DNA of 64,000 bases. Source: Mariprofundaceae bacterium (GTDB taxonomy: Bacteria; Pseudomonadota; Zetaproteobacteria; Mariprofundales; Mariprofundaceae). The translations under genes were made by a program, and so were the position numbers. A model generated the notes under the pieces. It was given only the letters and a program-made list of their open reading frames with translations. It was not told the origin of the DNA and did no database searches. This document shows, one piece after another, positions 2,929-51,613 of this stretch (position 1 is its first letter; each line of letters starts with the position of its first letter). The stretch spans positions 62,001 to 126,000 of the forward strand of contig JAJFLC010000015.1 of assembly GCA_021772895.1 (NCBI GenBank), in the 5' to 3' direction.

Positions 2929-3477
2929 ATGACACAATTAAAAGAAGTTAAAGAAGCAACGGTTGAAACGATTGAAATGCCGCTTGAACGTGACTGGTTT
3001 TCACGCTCCCTGATCCGACAATTATCCGGTCTTCTCGAAGAGGTGGTAGGCCTTGAAGAGGCCTCAGGTTTTATCAGTGTGGTGGGCCAAAATATTGGCA
3101 ATGATATCAACGAACTATATAAAAACGGTTTAAAGCTCTCAAACCTCAACCGTCAGCAGATCAGCGATGTGCTGGTTGACCTGAAAACGCGTATTCAGGG
3201 TGATTTTTATGTTATTGAGGCCGATGACAGCAAAATTGTCCTGGGTAATCGTGCCTGCCCGTTTGGTACTGAGATGGTAAAAGATCGCCCCTCTCTTTGC
3301 ATGATGACCTCAAACGTCTTTGGCACCATCGCAGCAGAAAACGATGGTTATGCCAAGGTGGTACTTAACGAGACCATTGCACAAGGTGCGCCGGGTTGCC
3401 ACGTAACTGTTTATCTTGAAGCAAACGATGAGGCAAACGCAGCCGATGGGCATGAGTATTTCAAAGCAGGATCATAA
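2929..3477 (+). CDS. Methanogen-output-domain-1-like (V4R-like) cysteine-containing protein
   Basis: A 182-residue soluble protein preceded by a good Shine-Dalgarno (TTAGGAGC). The C-terminal half has the pattern ACPFG (C110), LCMM (C124) and GCHVTVYL (C157) with a GxIAxxxxGYxxV segment between. This matches proteins annotated as 'methanogen output domain 1-containing', a small-ligand or sensory output fold related to V4R domains. The N-terminal part is helical. It sits between a c-di-GMP response regulator and a PAS histidine kinase, 7 bases before the latter's preferred start, so a sensory or adaptor role is inferred. The three cysteines could hold a metal or a redox disulfide. Family assignment is from motif memory only; the ligand is unknown. 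Confidence 0.7.
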
Positions 3478-3484
3478 AACCACT

Positions 3485-5551
3485 ATGCCAGATAAGAACT
3501 TACTCAAATCATTCGCACAGATTGCGAAATCGCTGCCCAACGCATTTTTTCTGCTTGATGGTGATGGAAATATCTGTGATATCAACCCGCCCGGGTGCCG
3601 AATATTGGGTATGAAGAAAGAGCAGCTGGTAAAACAAAAGCTTCATGATCTGGTAACAAGTGATAAAAAGCAGGTCGATGCATGGCTCCTTCAATGGAGC
3701 CGTAGCGGTAGCCCGATGCCCTGTAGCATCAATATAAAAAAAGAAGATGACGAAGTGCTGGCCTGCCTTGCCAGTGGCAGTGTACTTCGACCCAAAACAG
3801 AAGATGCCCCGGCTCTTCTTTTGCTGCGTGTACAGTTAAAAAAAGTCCTTAATCAGGGTTTTGCCACACTCAACGAAAAAATCACACTGCTGCAACGTGA
3901 GGTGAATGAACGAAAAACAATTGAATCCGCGCTTCGTAAAAGCGAGGAACAGGTACGCCTGCTACTCGATTCATCAGAGGAGATCATTTATGGCATTGAT
4001 CTGAAAGGTCACTGTACCTTTGCCAATCTGGCTTGCCTGAAAATGCTTGGTTATGATGAACTTTCAGAGCTACTGGGACAAAATATGCATACGTTAATTC
4101 ATCATAGCCTGCCCGATGGCTCGGCCTACCCGGCTGAAGCATGTGCAATTTTTAAGGCACATCACACGGGTGAATCCACCCACTGCGATACCGAAGTGTT
4201 CTGGCGGCGTGATGGCAGCAATTTTCCGGTCACTTACAATGCCTATCCGATTTTTCAGGATAAAGTCATTCAGGGTACTGTGGTGACTGCCATCGACATC
4301 ACGGAGCAAAAAGAGGTTCAGGATGCACTCGATCGTAGCAATGAAGCACTCTACAGAGCTCAGGAGATTGCTCACATCGGCAGTTGGGACTGGAACATTG
4401 TAACCGGTGAACTGGCGTGGTCTGATGAAATTTATCGCATTTTTGGTTTAACACGCCAGCAGTTTCCAGCCACCTATGAGGCATTTCTTAATACCATTCA
4501 TCCCGATGACAAAGAAGCTGTAGCAAAGGCTGTTGATGCAGCCGTTGCTGATGTCGATGCTGGCTACAGCATTGAACATCGTATCATCCGACCTGATGGT
4601 GAAGAACGCATCGTGCATGAACATGGTATTGTCTATTGGGATGGAAACCACAAAGCAATACGGATGATCGGTGCTGTACACGATATAACAGAGCTCAAAC
4701 AAAACGAACATGCCATCAACCAGCTCAATGAAGAGCTTGAAGAGCGTGTAGAGGCACGCACTGCTGAGCTGAAAAGAACTCAATCTGAGCTTGCACAAAA
4801 AGAAAAAATGGCTTCGCTGGGCGATCTTGTGGCTGGCGTGGCGCATGAAATTAATACACCTGTTGGTATTGGCGTTACCGCTTCAAGCCATCTGGCAGAG
4901 CAACTTGAAAGCTATCAGGAGCGCTATGATAATAACACACTGACCCGGGGAGATTTCGAAAAACTTCTCTCAACGGCCATTGAATCCACCCAGATGGTAA
5001 GCCATAACCTTAAACGTGCTGCTTCACTCATTCACAGCTTCAAACAAATCGCTGTCGATCAATCCAGCGATGAACGACGCAGCTTTTTTATTCATGACTA
5101 TATCAAAGAGATGATGTGGAGCCTGCATCCCAAACTTAAAAATACGCCGTTTGAGGTGGAAATCAACTGCCCGGAGAATATCTATATTTATAGCTATCCG
5201 GGTGTGTTTTCACAGATCATTACCAATTTTGTTGTCAACTCGCTGGTGCACGGTTTTGCAGGGGCCACATCAGGAAAAATCACGATGAATATAAGCCAGG
5301 ATGCAAACAACTTTATATTTAATTATCGTGATGACGGGAAGGGAATCAAAAAAGAAGCACTCAAACGCGTATTTGACCCCTTTTTCACCACGCGCCGTGG
5401 CTCAGGTGGCAGCGGCTTAGGCATGAATATTGTCTATAATTTGGTAACCCAAAAATTAGGCGGCACCATTGTTTGTTCAAGTTCGTCTGGCGAAGGTGCA
5501 ATATTTGAAATTTCGGTGCCCTTTAATTTATTGAAAAATATTCCGTCATAG
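3485..5551 (+). CDS. PAS-domain sensor histidine kinase
   Basis: Soluble sensor kinase with no membrane segment. From the Met at 3485 (688 residues): PAS about 15-110, PAS about 150-270, PAS about 290-400 (IAHIGSWDW opening, DITELKQ closing), a coiled coil, then the dimerisation/phosphoacceptor region with H454 in VAHEINTP. ATPase boxes follow: N box (NFVVNSLVHG), DDGKGI, and FTTRRGSGGSGLGM. The frame is open back to 3416, but that start overlaps the previous gene by 62 bases and adds a low-quality tail; 3485 lies 8 bases after the upstream stop. The HEINTP signature resembles DctB-like kinases. It has no receiver or output of its own, so the GGDEF/EAL response regulator upstream is the obvious candidate partner. 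Confidence 0.9.
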   Translation: MPDKNLLKSFAQIAKSLPNAFFLLDGDGNICDINPPGCRILGMKKEQLVKQKLHDLVTSDKKQVDAWLLQWSRSGSPMPCSINIKKEDDEVLACLASGSVLRPKTEDAPALLLLRVQLKKVLNQGFATLNEKITLLQREVNERKTIESALRKSEEQVRLLLDSSEEIIYGIDLKGHCTFANLACLKMLGYDELSELLGQNMHTLIHHSLPDGSAYPAEACAIFKAHHTGESTHCDTEVFWRRDGSNFPVTYNAYPIFQDKVIQGTVVTAIDITEQKEVQDALDRSNEALYRAQEIAHIGSWDWNIVTGELAWSDEIYRIFGLTRQQFPATYEAFLNTIHPDDKEAVAKAVDAAVADVDAGYSIEHRIIRPDGEERIVHEHGIVYWDGNHKAIRMIGAVHDITELKQNEHAINQLNEELEERVEARTAELKRTQSELAQKEKMASLGDLVAGVAHEINTPVGIGVTASSHLAEQLESYQERYDNNTLTRGDFEKLLSTAIESTQMVSHNLKRAASLIHSFKQIAVDQSSDERRSFFIHDYIKEMMWSLHPKLKNTPFEVEINCPENIYIYSYPGVFSQIITNFVVNSLVHGFAGATSGKITMNISQDANNFIFNYRDDGKGIKKEALKRVFDPFFTTRRGSGGSGLGMNIVYNLVTQKLGGTIVCSSSSGEGAIFEISVPFNLLKNIPS

Positions 5552-28393: not shown

Positions 28394-28721
28394 CAAAATA
28401 CATTCACCAAAATAGCAACAAATCATATCCTCCTTCACCGAACCAAAACCTTTAATGATTTTTGGGTACTCCAGTTAGATACAATCTCTTGGATAGCTTG
28501 TGCCAGTGTTGTGACTTAAAAAGGGTAGCGCCCCCCAAAGATCGTTACTCACTGCGTGAATTCAGTTCTGATTGACCTTATTCTGATATGAAGCCAAAAT
28601 ACCTCCAAAGTCCTTGTTTGAAGGTTAATATCCAATAATAAGGAAATCAAGGGCGTATACAGGAGCGTAATAGATGGAAAACCAAGTCCTCTTATTACCA
28701 AGTTAGAGCCAAGGAGTTAGA

Positions 28722-29312
28722 TTGAATTTCTTTCCAAAACCACCAACAGATAATTTATACAAATTCATGGCCATTACGGGCACATGGCTAATGGCCTTTG
28801 TTACAGTTTTTATCATGTATCTTGGCTATTTAAACTACGAAATAAAAAAGATATCTGCTGAGCAAAGCAACTATTTCTTTCACAAAAACACCGTGGGAGA
28901 CATTGACATGAGACTTGGTTCTATTAATGAAGGAAAAATAAAAGAAAACATGTTGGATTGGAGTGTCATTTCTGATGGTTCTGAAAGAGAAATATCTTTT
29001 CTTAATGCTGCCAAGAAACGCCACCTAGAAATGATTCATGAGTATGAATTAAAGCCAAATAGAGATTATAGTAAGCTATTTAAATTAGCAGAAGCAACTG
29101 GGTTTATGTGGGTTGCATACCTTTTAGTATCCATTTCTGTTTTCTGTTTCTATTTTGGATTTAAGCATTGGTATAACAAAGTTCAAAAGCTCAACGATTT
29201 ATCAATAGAAAATAATATTAAAATACAAAAGCTTACGATTGAAAAAATGAACAAGGAAATTGCTCTAACAAAAAAATCGAGAGGGACGCGCTACCGCGTG
29301 CCTCTCATTTAA
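28722..29312 (+). CDS. Unknown two-helix membrane protein, possible integron cassette gene
   Basis: I do not recognise the family. The 196 residues contain a membrane helix at about 14-36 (ITGTWLMAFVTVFIMYLGY), a soluble loop of about 90 residues, a second helix at about 127-147 (WVAYLLVSISVFCFYFGF), and a Lys/Glu-rich coiled-coil tail. Start is TTG with AAGGAG 5 bases upstream. The gene is more AT-rich than the glycogen genes beside it, and its stop codon lies inside a hairpin with attC-like features, so arrival as a mobile cassette is a reasonable inference. Confidence 0.65.
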   Translation: MNFFPKPPTDNLYKFMAITGTWLMAFVTVFIMYLGYLNYEIKKISAEQSNYFFHKNTVGDIDMRLGSINEGKIKENMLDWSVISDGSEREISFLNAAKKRHLEMIHEYELKPNRDYSKLFKLAEATGFMWVAYLLVSISVFCFYFGFKHWYNKVQKLNDLSIENNIKIQKLTIEKMNKEIALTKKSRGTRYRVPLI

Positions 29313-29322
29313 ATCGTTATGT
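29263..29322 (+). repeat. attC-like hairpin site
   Basis: About 60 bases running from CTCTAAC (29263-29269) to GTTATGT (29316-29322), the AAC/GTT trinucleotides being the conserved ends of attC recombination sites. The interior folds: GAGAGGGACGCG (29279-29290) against CGCGTGCCTCTC (29295-29306) with one mismatch and a CTAC loop, extended by AAAT/ATTT. Its place across the stop of one short unknown gene and just before another is as in integron cassettes. The imperfect GTTRRRY match keeps the call tentative. Confidence 0.5.
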
Positions 29323-49337: not shown

Positions 49338-49991
49338 TCACCTTCCCGGTACTTCATTCCGTATAATCGTATGCCTTTGTGTTAAAAAAATATTGAAGGC
49401 AAACAAAAATGTCCATAAAAGACATATAAATGCGGTGATTCGTTCCGTTAACCCCATTATTGGCGTCCCTAGCTTGGTGGCTGCGAACACGCCCGTAATA
49501 AGAATCAAGCCTACAGTCATGAATGTATACCACATAAAGGATGGCAAGATATTAACTTTCTTGAGAAACACACCAATTAACAAAGTAGACAGAATAGAAA
49601 GAAGGACAAGAATTCCTACCAAGACTTTATGTATCTCGCCGGAAAGGGTTGCGGGGCTACCCCATGCATCCTGCGGGAAAAAAGATGCCGTTGATATATT
49701 GATGACTCCCATGAGAATAATCATCCACGCAGCACCGATTCCAACAATTTCAATTTTAGAATATTTTTTAATAAATTTCAAAACGCCAACACCAAAAAGT
49801 ATTGTTAATATTGCACTGATATTATGCATACTCATGAGTAATAACTGATTTGGGGAACCGGGGGAAAACAGTTCGCTCATTGTGTCTGAAATATGACTAT
49901 AATCTGATCGCAATGCGCCACCTAGAATGATCATCACTATAAAAATGATTGGTGACATCATTCCACATATTGGAAATATTTGTTGTTTCAT
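49338..49991 (-). CDS. DUF998-like membrane protein, third cassette of relic integron
   Basis: A 217-residue integral membrane protein with six hydrophobic helices; ALRSDYSHISDTMSELFSPGSPN between helices 1 and 2, and FFPQDAWG, fit the DUF998 family. Function unknown. AT-rich compared with dapF next to it. ATG at 49991 has GGAG 5 bases upstream and lies 14 bases after the GTTAGGC end of an attC-like site, as a cassette gene would. No attC is seen after its stop, which touches the dapF stop. Confidence 0.72.
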   Translation of the reverse strand: MKQQIFPICGMMSPIIFIVMIILGGALRSDYSHISDTMSELFSPGSPNQLLLMSMHNISAILTILFGVGVLKFIKKYSKIEIVGIGAAWMIILMGVINISTASFFPQDAWGSPATLSGEIHKVLVGILVLLSILSTLLIGVFLKKVNILPSFMWYTFMTVGLILITGVFAATKLGTPIMGLTERITAFICLLWTFLFAFNIFLTQRHTIIRNEVPGR

Positions 49992-50005
49992 TACCGCTCC
50001 GGTTC

Positions 50006-50087
50006 GCCTAACGCCGTGATAAGGAACGCACGTCAGCCTTTCTCAGTGAGGAACAAAGTGATGAGTGACGTCATTGCCTTGTTAGCG
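50006..50087 (-). repeat. attC-like recombination site (best match)
   Basis: Read on the minus strand, CGCTAAC (50087-50081) opens and GTTAGGC (50012-50006, a perfect GTTRRRY) closes an 82-base site. Pairing steps inward: CTAAC/GTTAG, AAGG/CCTT, AA/TT, ACGTCA/TGACGT, with unpaired bases between, as in attC folds. It begins 4 bases after the stop of the methyltransferase-like gene and ends 14 bases before the DUF998 start, the standard cassette spacing. Confidence 0.75.
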
Positions 50088-50091
50088 GGGT

Positions 50092-50469
50092 TCAAAGCCA
50101 CCGCCGCGTCCTTGATTTGTATGCTTCATAAGATTTCCCAAATTGTAGAATCAGGTAACGTTCTTCACGAAGCACCACGCCCCAATGCATGATAGCCAAT
50201 AGCGGAACCAGAAAAAGAAACGGCCACTGTGAATCGCCTAACAGAGTAATGCCAACGTAAAGACCTGTCATGGCAACGTAGATTGGATTGCGAGACAACT
50301 TAAATGGACCATCGGTGATCAGAGCGACAGATGATTCACGTGGACTCGCACTCGTACCTCTTTTCTTCATTGTGACAAAGGCCCAACGAGCAAACGCACC
50401 GCTTAAAATAATAAGTGCAACGCCACCCACATACGACGTAAATGTTGCCAATGAAAGTTCCGGGGACAT
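50092..50469 (-). CDS. Isoprenylcysteine carboxylmethyltransferase-like membrane protein, 5' end remodelled
   Basis: A 125-residue ICMT/PEMT-type protein with about three membrane helices and the family block GPFKLSRNPIYVAMTGLYVG, then LREERYLILQFGKSYEAYKSR. These enzymes methylate membrane-anchored or lipid substrates; the substrate here is unknown. The ATG at 50469 lies inside the terminal repeat of an inserted 98-bp element, so the first residues (MSPEL) derive from that element; the frame runs on through it to 50499. The family's first helix may be missing. Second cassette of the relic integron. Confidence 0.7.
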   Translation of the reverse strand: MSPELSLATFTSYVGGVALIILSGAFARWAFVTMKKRGTSASPRESSVALITDGPFKLSRNPIYVAMTGLYVGITLLGDSQWPFLFLVPLLAIMHWGVVLREERYLILQFGKSYEAYKSRTRRWL

Positions 50470-50552
50470 AATATATAATTCAACCGCATCTACTTTCAAA
50501 CCTCTGCTTTATCCTTCCATAGACAGCAATTAAGTATTATGTCCCCAGAATT
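50455..50552. mobile_element. 98-bp MITE-like palindromic element, copy 1
   Basis: Identical over 98 bases to the copy at 51236-51333. Ends GGGGACATAATATATAATT (50462-50480) and AATTAAGTATTATGTCCCC (50528-50546) are inverted repeats, 17 of 19 matching. This is the layout of non-autonomous elements mobilised by IS200-like/RAYT tyrosine transposases. No transposase is in the window. It covers the start region of the ICMT-like gene. Confidence 0.75.
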
Positions 50553-50585
50553 TCGGTTTGAAGCTGTGTAGTTCTCATTACGATC

Positions 50586-50648
50586 CTCTAACGACTTAGG
50601 TAAGATGCGCGCGACTTTTTCGCATCGTACTTGGCCTGCTTGTTATAT
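50586..50648 (-). repeat. attC-like recombination site
   Basis: On the minus strand, ATATAAC (50648-50642) opens and GTTAGAG (50592-50586) closes a 63-base site. Inside, GTACGATGCG pairs with CGCATCTTAC (one mismatch) around a short loop. It lies 22 bases after the stop of the unknown membrane gene at 50671 and before the element-disrupted start of the next cassette. Confidence 0.65.
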
Positions 50649-50670
50649 GCTATTTTCATATTCTCTTTTA

Positions 50671-51171
50671 TCAAAAAATTCTATTGTATACATAAACAGT
50701 ATGTGAGACATGAAATATTGAAAAGGCTATTGAAGGTAATATGAAATGCCACTTTGAATAGACCAATTTGAAATAATAGGATTCTACCAACAGACTTAGA
50801 CCTATTAGCCATATAATTGGAGTATATGCCGGTGCAGTAAATCCCAGAACACTATTGCTCCAGCCAGAATTTGGTGCATAAATAAGCATTAACCAGGATG
50901 AAAAATAAAGCGCAACGCCTAAAGAAAAAGTAATCACCCCTTTTCTTTCGAAAGATGATGATATATTGAGTCGGAAAAACAATGGCAGAAGAAAAATAAT
51001 TGATCGGAATATATTTTCCCCAATGATAATGGCAAAAGGAATATCGCTATTAAATGATTTTGGATTAAATGCTGGAGGTAACTTTGAAGTTAAGAAAATA
51101 TTCCAAATAAAAATCGGCAATAATGCTATGTAACCATTTGTTAATATTTTCCGTAAACGATCCATCTCCAT
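50671..51171 (-). CDS. Unknown integral membrane protein, cassette gene
   Basis: A 166-residue protein with about five hydrophobic helices, no signal motif and no family I recognise. The C-terminus is aromatic (ESYYFKLVYSKWHFILPSIAFSIFHVSH). AGGTAG lies upstream of the ATG. Strongly AT-rich relative to the flanking core genes, consistent with foreign origin. Followed by an attC-like site. Confidence 0.65.
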   Translation of the reverse strand: MEMDRLRKILTNGYIALLPIFIWNIFLTSKLPPAFNPKSFNSDIPFAIIIGENIFRSIIFLLPLFFRLNISSSFERKGVITFSLGVALYFSSWLMLIYAPNSGWSNSVLGFTAPAYTPIIWLIGLSLLVESYYFKLVYSKWHFILPSIAFSIFHVSHTVYVYNRIF

Positions 51172-51194
51172 GTATGTCTACCTATTTATCCTAC

Positions 51195-51212
51195 ACATAA
51201 CCCGTGTTACAT
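51195..51212 (-). repeat. Collapsed att-like remnant
   Basis: ACATAAC-CCGT-GTTACAT: the two end heptamers expected of an attC lie only 4 bases apart, as if the central arms had been lost. It sits just upstream of the cassette gene at 51171. Short, so tentative. Confidence 0.3.
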
Positions 51213-51215
51213 GCC

Positions 51216-51251
51216 CGAAGTTCCGGGGACATACGAAGTTCCGGGGACATA
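51216..51251. repeat. 18-bp tandem duplication of the MITE end
   Basis: CGAAGTTCCGGGGACATA occurs twice in tandem (about 51217-51234 and 51235-51252), the second copy being the true left end of element copy 2. It looks like a partial duplicate or abortive insertion of the element end. Confidence 0.55.
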
Positions 51252-51333
51252 ATATATAATTCAACCGCATCTACTTTCAAACCTCTGCTTTATCCTTCCA
51301 TAGACAGCAATTAAGTATTATGTCCCCAGAATT
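51236..51333. mobile_element. 98-bp MITE-like palindromic element, copy 2
   Basis: Base-for-base identical to copy 1 at 50455-50552 and in the same orientation. Here it lies between the attI-like core and the first cassette gene. The identity implies recent movement or gene conversion. Confidence 0.75.
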
Positions 51334-51371
51334 CGTAGCTAATGTCGTGCTTCCATAGTGCATTTTTTTGT

Positions 51372-51378
51372 GCCTAAC
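51372..51378 (-). other. attI-like core site
   Basis: GCCTAAC, i.e. GTTAGGC on the minus strand, a perfect GTTRRRY crossover core, 109 bases upstream of the intI remnant's ATG and pointing toward the minus-strand cassettes. Position and orientation are as expected for attI; the wider attI accessory sequence was not identifiable. Confidence 0.45.
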
Positions 51379-51486
51379 TAACACAATATGAGTCACTGAT
51401 TTTCCACATATTATGCTCCTATAGGTGGACATATTTTCCATCATATTGCATATATTAAGGCTTAAAGGTGGACTTGAAAATACAAT

Positions 51487-51607
51487 GCCTAGCTATTCGA
51501 ATCAGGTCAATAAAACACCATTATACCGCCCTCAAGCTACGCGTTTGATGGAGCAGGTTAGTGAAGTCATGCGCTATCATCAGGATGATATTTACATCTA
51601 TTCTTAA
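51487..51607 (+). pseudogene. Truncated integron integrase (intI) N-terminus
   Basis: Only about 40 codons remain. NKTPLYRPQATRLMEQVSEVMRYH matches the opening of IntI tyrosine recombinases (which read on with HYxxRTExxYxxWIxxFIxFH). After RYH the sequence becomes QDDIYIYS and stops, so the catalytic R...H-R-Y domain, about 280 residues, is gone. It is divergent from the cassette genes, as intI normally is. ATG 51487 is the likely start; the frame is open to 51425. The break lies at the junction with the DUF6159-like gene. Confidence 0.65.
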
Positions 51608-51613
51608 ACATCG

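Follow-up and report, generated by a model that had tools for sequence, protein, structure and literature searches.

Integrons are described as one integrase gene (intI) beside one attI site, at which the cassette arrays grow, and CALINs and decayed intI genes are also well known. An example of intI decay comes from Xanthomonas (PMC12444791), and pieces of attI carried in cassettes are known and functional (PMC12901181). In attI1, a short reading frame, ORF-11, boosts first-cassette translation (PMC8876359). Outside class 1, attI sites are poorly described and are not searched for; IntegronFinder 2 does not detect them, and by default it leaves out single attC sites (PMC9024848). Searches of open-licence papers yielded no account of dispersed solo attI sites, nor of Mariprofundus integrons.

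We analysed a window of 64,000 nucleotides (positions 62,001-126,000 of contig JAJFLC010000015.1) from the genome of a marine iron oxidiser of the Mariprofundaceae, which measures 2.45 Mb and is 98.5% complete. The original prediction for positions 49338-51613 was a relic chromosomal integron. The locus is indeed a decayed integron platform, in which an attI of about 100 bp and a stub of 32 intI codons are joined by one good cassette and two worn ones, but the view of a single relic is too small, because the genome holds about 15 attI platforms, of which this is one. Judging from sequence comparisons, it probably belongs to a dispersed set of solo attI platforms that received their cassettes from an IntI acting in trans, a set that should be frozen here.

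Like a complete chromosomal integron, the locus has an attI homologous to intI-adjacent attI sites (70% identity over 229 nt to that of an intact integron), co-oriented cassettes, at least one attC downstream in array orientation (50586-50648, 26.4 bits) and an intI divergent from the array. It differs in that no full-length IntI stands beside the attI, where a 32-codon stub alone is left, in that no full intI is found genome-wide, and in carrying not one attI site but about 15. CALINs likewise contain attC sites and cassettes without intI and are considered mobilisable in trans. However, they are defined as attC clusters (at least two attC without intI at the IntegronFinder 2 default), and this locus has one supported attC; moreover, each small array here has its own attI and leader, with mostly one or two attC, and would therefore not be reported by IntegronFinder 2 at its default (PMC9024848).

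The locus at 49338-51613 and a second unit in the window

Two models were used, both with small training sets. R1 is a covariance model built from 11 attC in relatives' arrays, aligned with MAFFT on padded sequences, with own-genome sequences excluded. R2 describes the attI module by sequence alone; its training set included five own-genome copies and left out the other 10 of 15. The features of the locus are as follows.

51485-51580, plus strand: intI 5' stub, 32 codons (tblastn match to complete IntI in relatives, E 8e-12)
51373-51474, minus strand: attI module 1, comprising left dyad, intI promoter region, right dyad and core (R2, 88.1 bits)
51372-51378, minus strand: attI core GTTAGGC (from sequence; cores aligned in attI alignments A1 and A4)
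51374-51409, minus strand: leader mini-ORF MWKISDSYCVS*, its TAG inside the core (module mini-ORF analysis)
51195-51212, minus strand: attC remnant candidate, loop deleted, ATGTAAC-ACGG-GTTATGT (R1, 8.8 bits, E 1, weak)
50671-51171, minus strand: cassette ORF 1, 166 aa, hydrophobic, no family (ORF list, Pfam)
50586-50648, minus strand: attC of cassette 1 (R1, 26.4 bits, E 1e-5)
50092-50499, minus strand: cassette ORF 2, PEMT-type methyltransferase, 5' end within a repeat copy (PF04191, E 1.6e-15)
50006-50087, minus strand: proposed second attC, right ends, fold unsupported (R1, 7.1 bits, E 3.1)
49338-49991, minus strand: ORF 3, DUF998 membrane protein (PF06197, E 2.7e-19)

The plus-strand ORF 51425-51607 holds MPSYSNQVNKTPLYRPQATRLMEQVSEVMRYH, starting at the ATG at 51485. 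It is the IntI N-terminus that had been proposed: tblastn aligns it over 43 aa with the complete IntI of one relative (L030; 56% identity, E 8e-12) and gives a similar match to another (L032; E 2e-11). The proposed truncation is also borne out: homology stops at 51580 (codon 32), and eight unrelated codons and a stop follow. Detection of the stub by a family profile, on the other hand, failed, as it is so short that the Pfam and NCBIfam profiles did not recognise it. At the DNA level, the stretch from attI into intI aligns with the intact region of L032 at 70% identity over 229 nt, and blastn gives 64-70% identity between the attI region and the attI-intI regions of relatives. The GTTAGGC core, placed by the prediction about 110 bp upstream of intI, lies 107 bp from its ATG within this homologous attI. 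The attI copy of the locus was a training member of R2, whereas the blastn comparison with relatives is independent of that model.

All three minus-strand ORFs of the predicted cassette run are present. Of the two attC sites assigned to them, the one at 50586-50648 stands, with an R1 E-value of 1e-5 when 4.1 kb is searched and 5e-4 for 179 kb, and the one at 50006-50087 does not, its fold z-score being about 0 (0.2-0.3). The latter site lies directly behind the PEMT stop with the right ends and may be a decayed attC. The DUF998 ORF ends where dapF ends, and therefore no attC lies behind it. A strict RYYYAAC/GTTRRRY motif scan overlooked most genuine attC of this family, because their cores are looser. 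A relaxed fold scan recovered the relatives' attC and returned 0 sites in the window; since it was blind to the window attC, the covariance model R1 was built. An Rfam search gave nothing relevant.

Three features had escaped the original prediction. The remnant candidate at 51195-51212 is possibly an attC minus its loop. A repeat is present in two copies (50458-50554 and 51239-51331), one of which runs into the PEMT ORF at its 5' end; the repeat also separates attI from the first cassette. Its inverted ends are GGGGACATAATA...TATTATGTCCCC, further copies occur in the genome (L002, L007, L008), and it resembles an element of the REP or MITE type. The third is another attI with its attC, so that R1 and R2 together give exactly two attI and two attC matches in the window, forming pairs.

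28567-28597, minus strand: stub of another intI, some 10 codons long, reading LASYQNKVNQ (L096; tblastn match of 83% over 18 aa, E 5e-7)
28609-28706, plus strand: attI module 2, outside the R2 training set (R2, 76.8 bits, E 5e-23)
28674-28706, plus strand: leader mini-ORF MENQVLLLPS* (module mini-ORF analysis)
28722-29312, plus strand: cassette ORF behind attI module 2 (L096)
29263-29322, plus strand: attC behind attI module 2 (R1, 37.9 bits, E 3e-7)

This attI is of another type than that of the reported locus. It is among the copies that are closest to other genera, with 91% identity to a copy in G032 (Mariprofundaceae SZUA-1372; the other labels that stand for named genomes are G007, Zetaproteobacteria SZUA-181; G019, Mariprofundus sp. 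UBA1536; and G020, Mariprofundus sp. KV).

Dispersed attI modules and their leader

A full intI, which the original prediction suggested seeking elsewhere, is missing from the own genome, where searches gave XerC/D-like matches only and none over the TIGR02249 cut-off; it is common in relatives, with 28 of 100 genomes, mostly of the same family, over the cut-off. This supports the earlier view that the array is frozen unless an IntI acts in trans. Blastn of the own genome with the locus found four additional copies of the attI region, and R2 found 15 modules in all, the weakest with an E-value of 3e-4. Most of these platforms are without an intI remnant, and some, such as L104 and L106, have no attC behind them. 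They adjoin lexA (L101), ftsY (L099), tadA (L098), dbpA (L097) and others, gene names being assigned by eye. In the R2 survey of 61 genomes, the module was found in 26 of the 37 Mariprofundaceae genomes (112 copies, an undercount due to strict filters) and in none of the 24 genomes outside the family.

Flanks, intI and attC were analysed at 82 attI loci. An intI or stub, ranging from a few codons up to full length, is retained beside 26 of them, and the remaining 56 gave no intI signal, a number that is an upper bound since stubs shorter than about 15 codons elude tblastn. In these 56 copies the left flank has about 0.05 bit per column until the module boundary, where conservation rises to about 1-1.4 bits within three bases. 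Each of the 36 good attC has an attI upstream of it on its own strand, and for 22 of them the closest attI is one that lacks an intI signal. For 30 of the 82 copies the nearest neighbour is in the same genome, compared with 4.7 expected, and copies have thus multiplied within genomes.

The attI pattern also matches Mariprofundus ferrooxydans PV-1 and Ghiorsea. Cultured strains, namely Mariprofundus sp. KV (L193) and M. ferrooxydans PV-1 (L200), carry attI modules without adjacent intI, and the pattern is therefore not a metagenome artefact. In strain KV the attI sits behind a 720-aa catalase-peroxidase-like ORF. The pattern was also seen in contigs titled Gammaproteobacteria OFTM143 (L190) and Flavobacteriales NORP312 (L201), for which misbinning and transfer are the candidate readings.

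The module contains two dyads, one at the module ends (TTCC..GGAA) and the second near the core. Their positions covary, with 122 double-change cells compared with 61.5 in shuffled and 20-35 in slid controls; this covariation fits a folded strand and a palindromic protein site alike. From the aligned attI sequences, RNAalifold derived no consensus structure. Between the dyads are a ribosome-binding site and an ORF of 10-12 codons, whose stop is usually the TAG of the core (e.g., MRNFDYSYSVS* and MENQVHVLPS* in relatives). Among 67 copies, the mini-ORF is open in 61, compared with 25% of shuffles, and 35 combine the common phase with a Shine-Dalgarno sequence, compared with 0.9% of shuffles; the shuffles ignore the kinship of the copies in both cases. 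The peptides diverge strongly among attI types, but length and phase are constant. As in ORF-11 of attI1, there is a GGAG-type ribosome-binding site and a short frame that is open across the crossover and stops at a TAG in the cassette core (PMC8876359). The modules differ from attI1 in their peptides, in the covarying dyads and in that most copies are without intI. Based on this anatomy, the module may be a loading dock combined with an expression leader.

Origin of the platforms

We propose that the docks are loaded in trans by an IntI whose gene resides elsewhere, in relatives or ancestors. A cassette would insert at the GTT core, where the mini-ORF ends, and the mini-ORF would act like ORF-11 of attI1 in coupling its translation to that of the first cassette; the own-genome set would be frozen unless IntI comes from outside. 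In its widest and more tentative form, for which we would give somewhat less than an even chance on sequence grounds, the proposal is a distributed integron, in which attI and leader form a discrete, dispersed unit of about 100 bp and one IntI, resident or passing, loads many promoter-equipped docks around the chromosome. If solo docks exist and serve in trans, most platforms of the Mariprofundaceae escape integron surveys, first cassettes could be expressed at many loci at once, and the trans action of IntI would be directly testable with one intI and several natural targets.

The best evidence for IntI in trans is a solo attI in genus g8 (L147), which is orthologous in G010, G032, G052 and G040. 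Left and right flanks are common to these orthologues, and the ORF is different in each of the four species; the site has a separate attC in G010 (44.1 bits), G032 (44.8 bits) and G052 (38.2 bits). The left flank common to G010, G032 and G052 is without intI, so the junction is older than the split of the species and the cassettes changed afterwards. TTAGAG-AAAAGTCG is common to G010 and G052 immediately after the crossover. Loading in trans would account for this pattern, although homologous exchange could also explain the cassette differences; furthermore, G052 and G040 are 87-88% complete, and an unseen IntI is thus possible there. In G040 (L181, contig C51), the orthologous attI is without its left dyad and retains ribosome-binding site, mini-ORF and core.

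Solo attI sites could instead be remnants of full integrons with IntI in cis, from which intI was repeatedly deleted while attI was kept as cassette promoter and leader. The graded lengths of the pieces at about 26 of the 82 copies, the reported locus and the unit at 28609 among them, speak for this, as does the progressive loss of IntI in Xanthomonas (PMC12444791). Random deletions, however, should scatter, whereas the 56 intI-less copies have one left boundary amid unrelated flanks, and at the g8 site the intI-less flank predates the split and yet the cassettes differ. Repeated deletion is consequently a possible origin, though one we hold to fall short of even odds. It is less likely, and in our assessment rather unlikely, that IntI spread the attI sites as attI-ended cassettes of the DeltaattI type, inserting at secondary chromosomal sites. 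Class 1 and class 2 integrons do hold such cassettes, which recombine (PMC12901181), and attI pieces are duplicated here too, an attI with a short intI stub inside the array of G019 and a 207-nt piece with attI in the own genome. But the DeltaattI cassettes of mobile integrons carry 14-244 nt of attI1 or attI2 (PMC12901181), whereas the present units are whole chromosomal modules of about 100 bp; such a spread would leave their fixed left boundary unexplained, and the flanks inspected showed no recognisable cassette core immediately to its left. Insertions at attG resemble the platforms in placing cassettes at numerous chromosomal positions, but attG sites are unrelated short targets, unlike the one module of about 100 bp that is found everywhere here. 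A reading of the module as a common intergenic repeat or promoter that takes no part in recombination and resembles attI by accident is highly improbable. The module is dispersed, intergenic and dyad-bearing, and the reported locus holds an unrelated repeat as well, but it is the attI at all full intI loci of alignment A1, and the attC downstream of it lie on its strand in 36 of 36 cases.

Gain or loss of a whole platform is visible at lexA (L101), where about 760 bp, comprising attI, two ORFs and two attC-like sites, are missing from the sister species G003. The flanks in G003 join within about 30 bp, and the left breakpoint is the module start; the difference may have arisen in either direction. 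Candidate terminal inverted repeats of the insert were seen by eye, at this one locus only. In G002, other sequence is present at the lexA site. The dapF-thiO interval of G002 likewise holds a different sequence, with no match to DUF6159, and was thus ruled out as a clean empty site. No syntenic empty site was found in the sister genomes for L102 and L097.

Several individual copies depart from the common form. In L097 (contig C4 of the own genome, G000), a direct repeat of 207 nt with 96% identity (2126-2332 and 3367-3573) takes in the attI plus some 120 bp to its left; the core is lost from the second copy, in which the mini-ORF start now begins a 128-aa ORF. In Mariprofundus sp. UBA1536, the attI with a short intI stub is doubled within the array (L064, 696-794 and 1501-1599), adjoins a full intI and has a broken attC in between. 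The gene ending just left of the solo attI in L091 and L152 terminates in ..YTHV.., which is tyrosine-recombinase-like, and an inverted-integrase arrangement is possible there. A copy upstream of a xerC-like gene (L108:2339-2444, G000:C10) contains a run of 14 C inside the attI, and its left flank recurs in L107 over some 75 bp and may code for ..PNxYCEWKVDVRQ...
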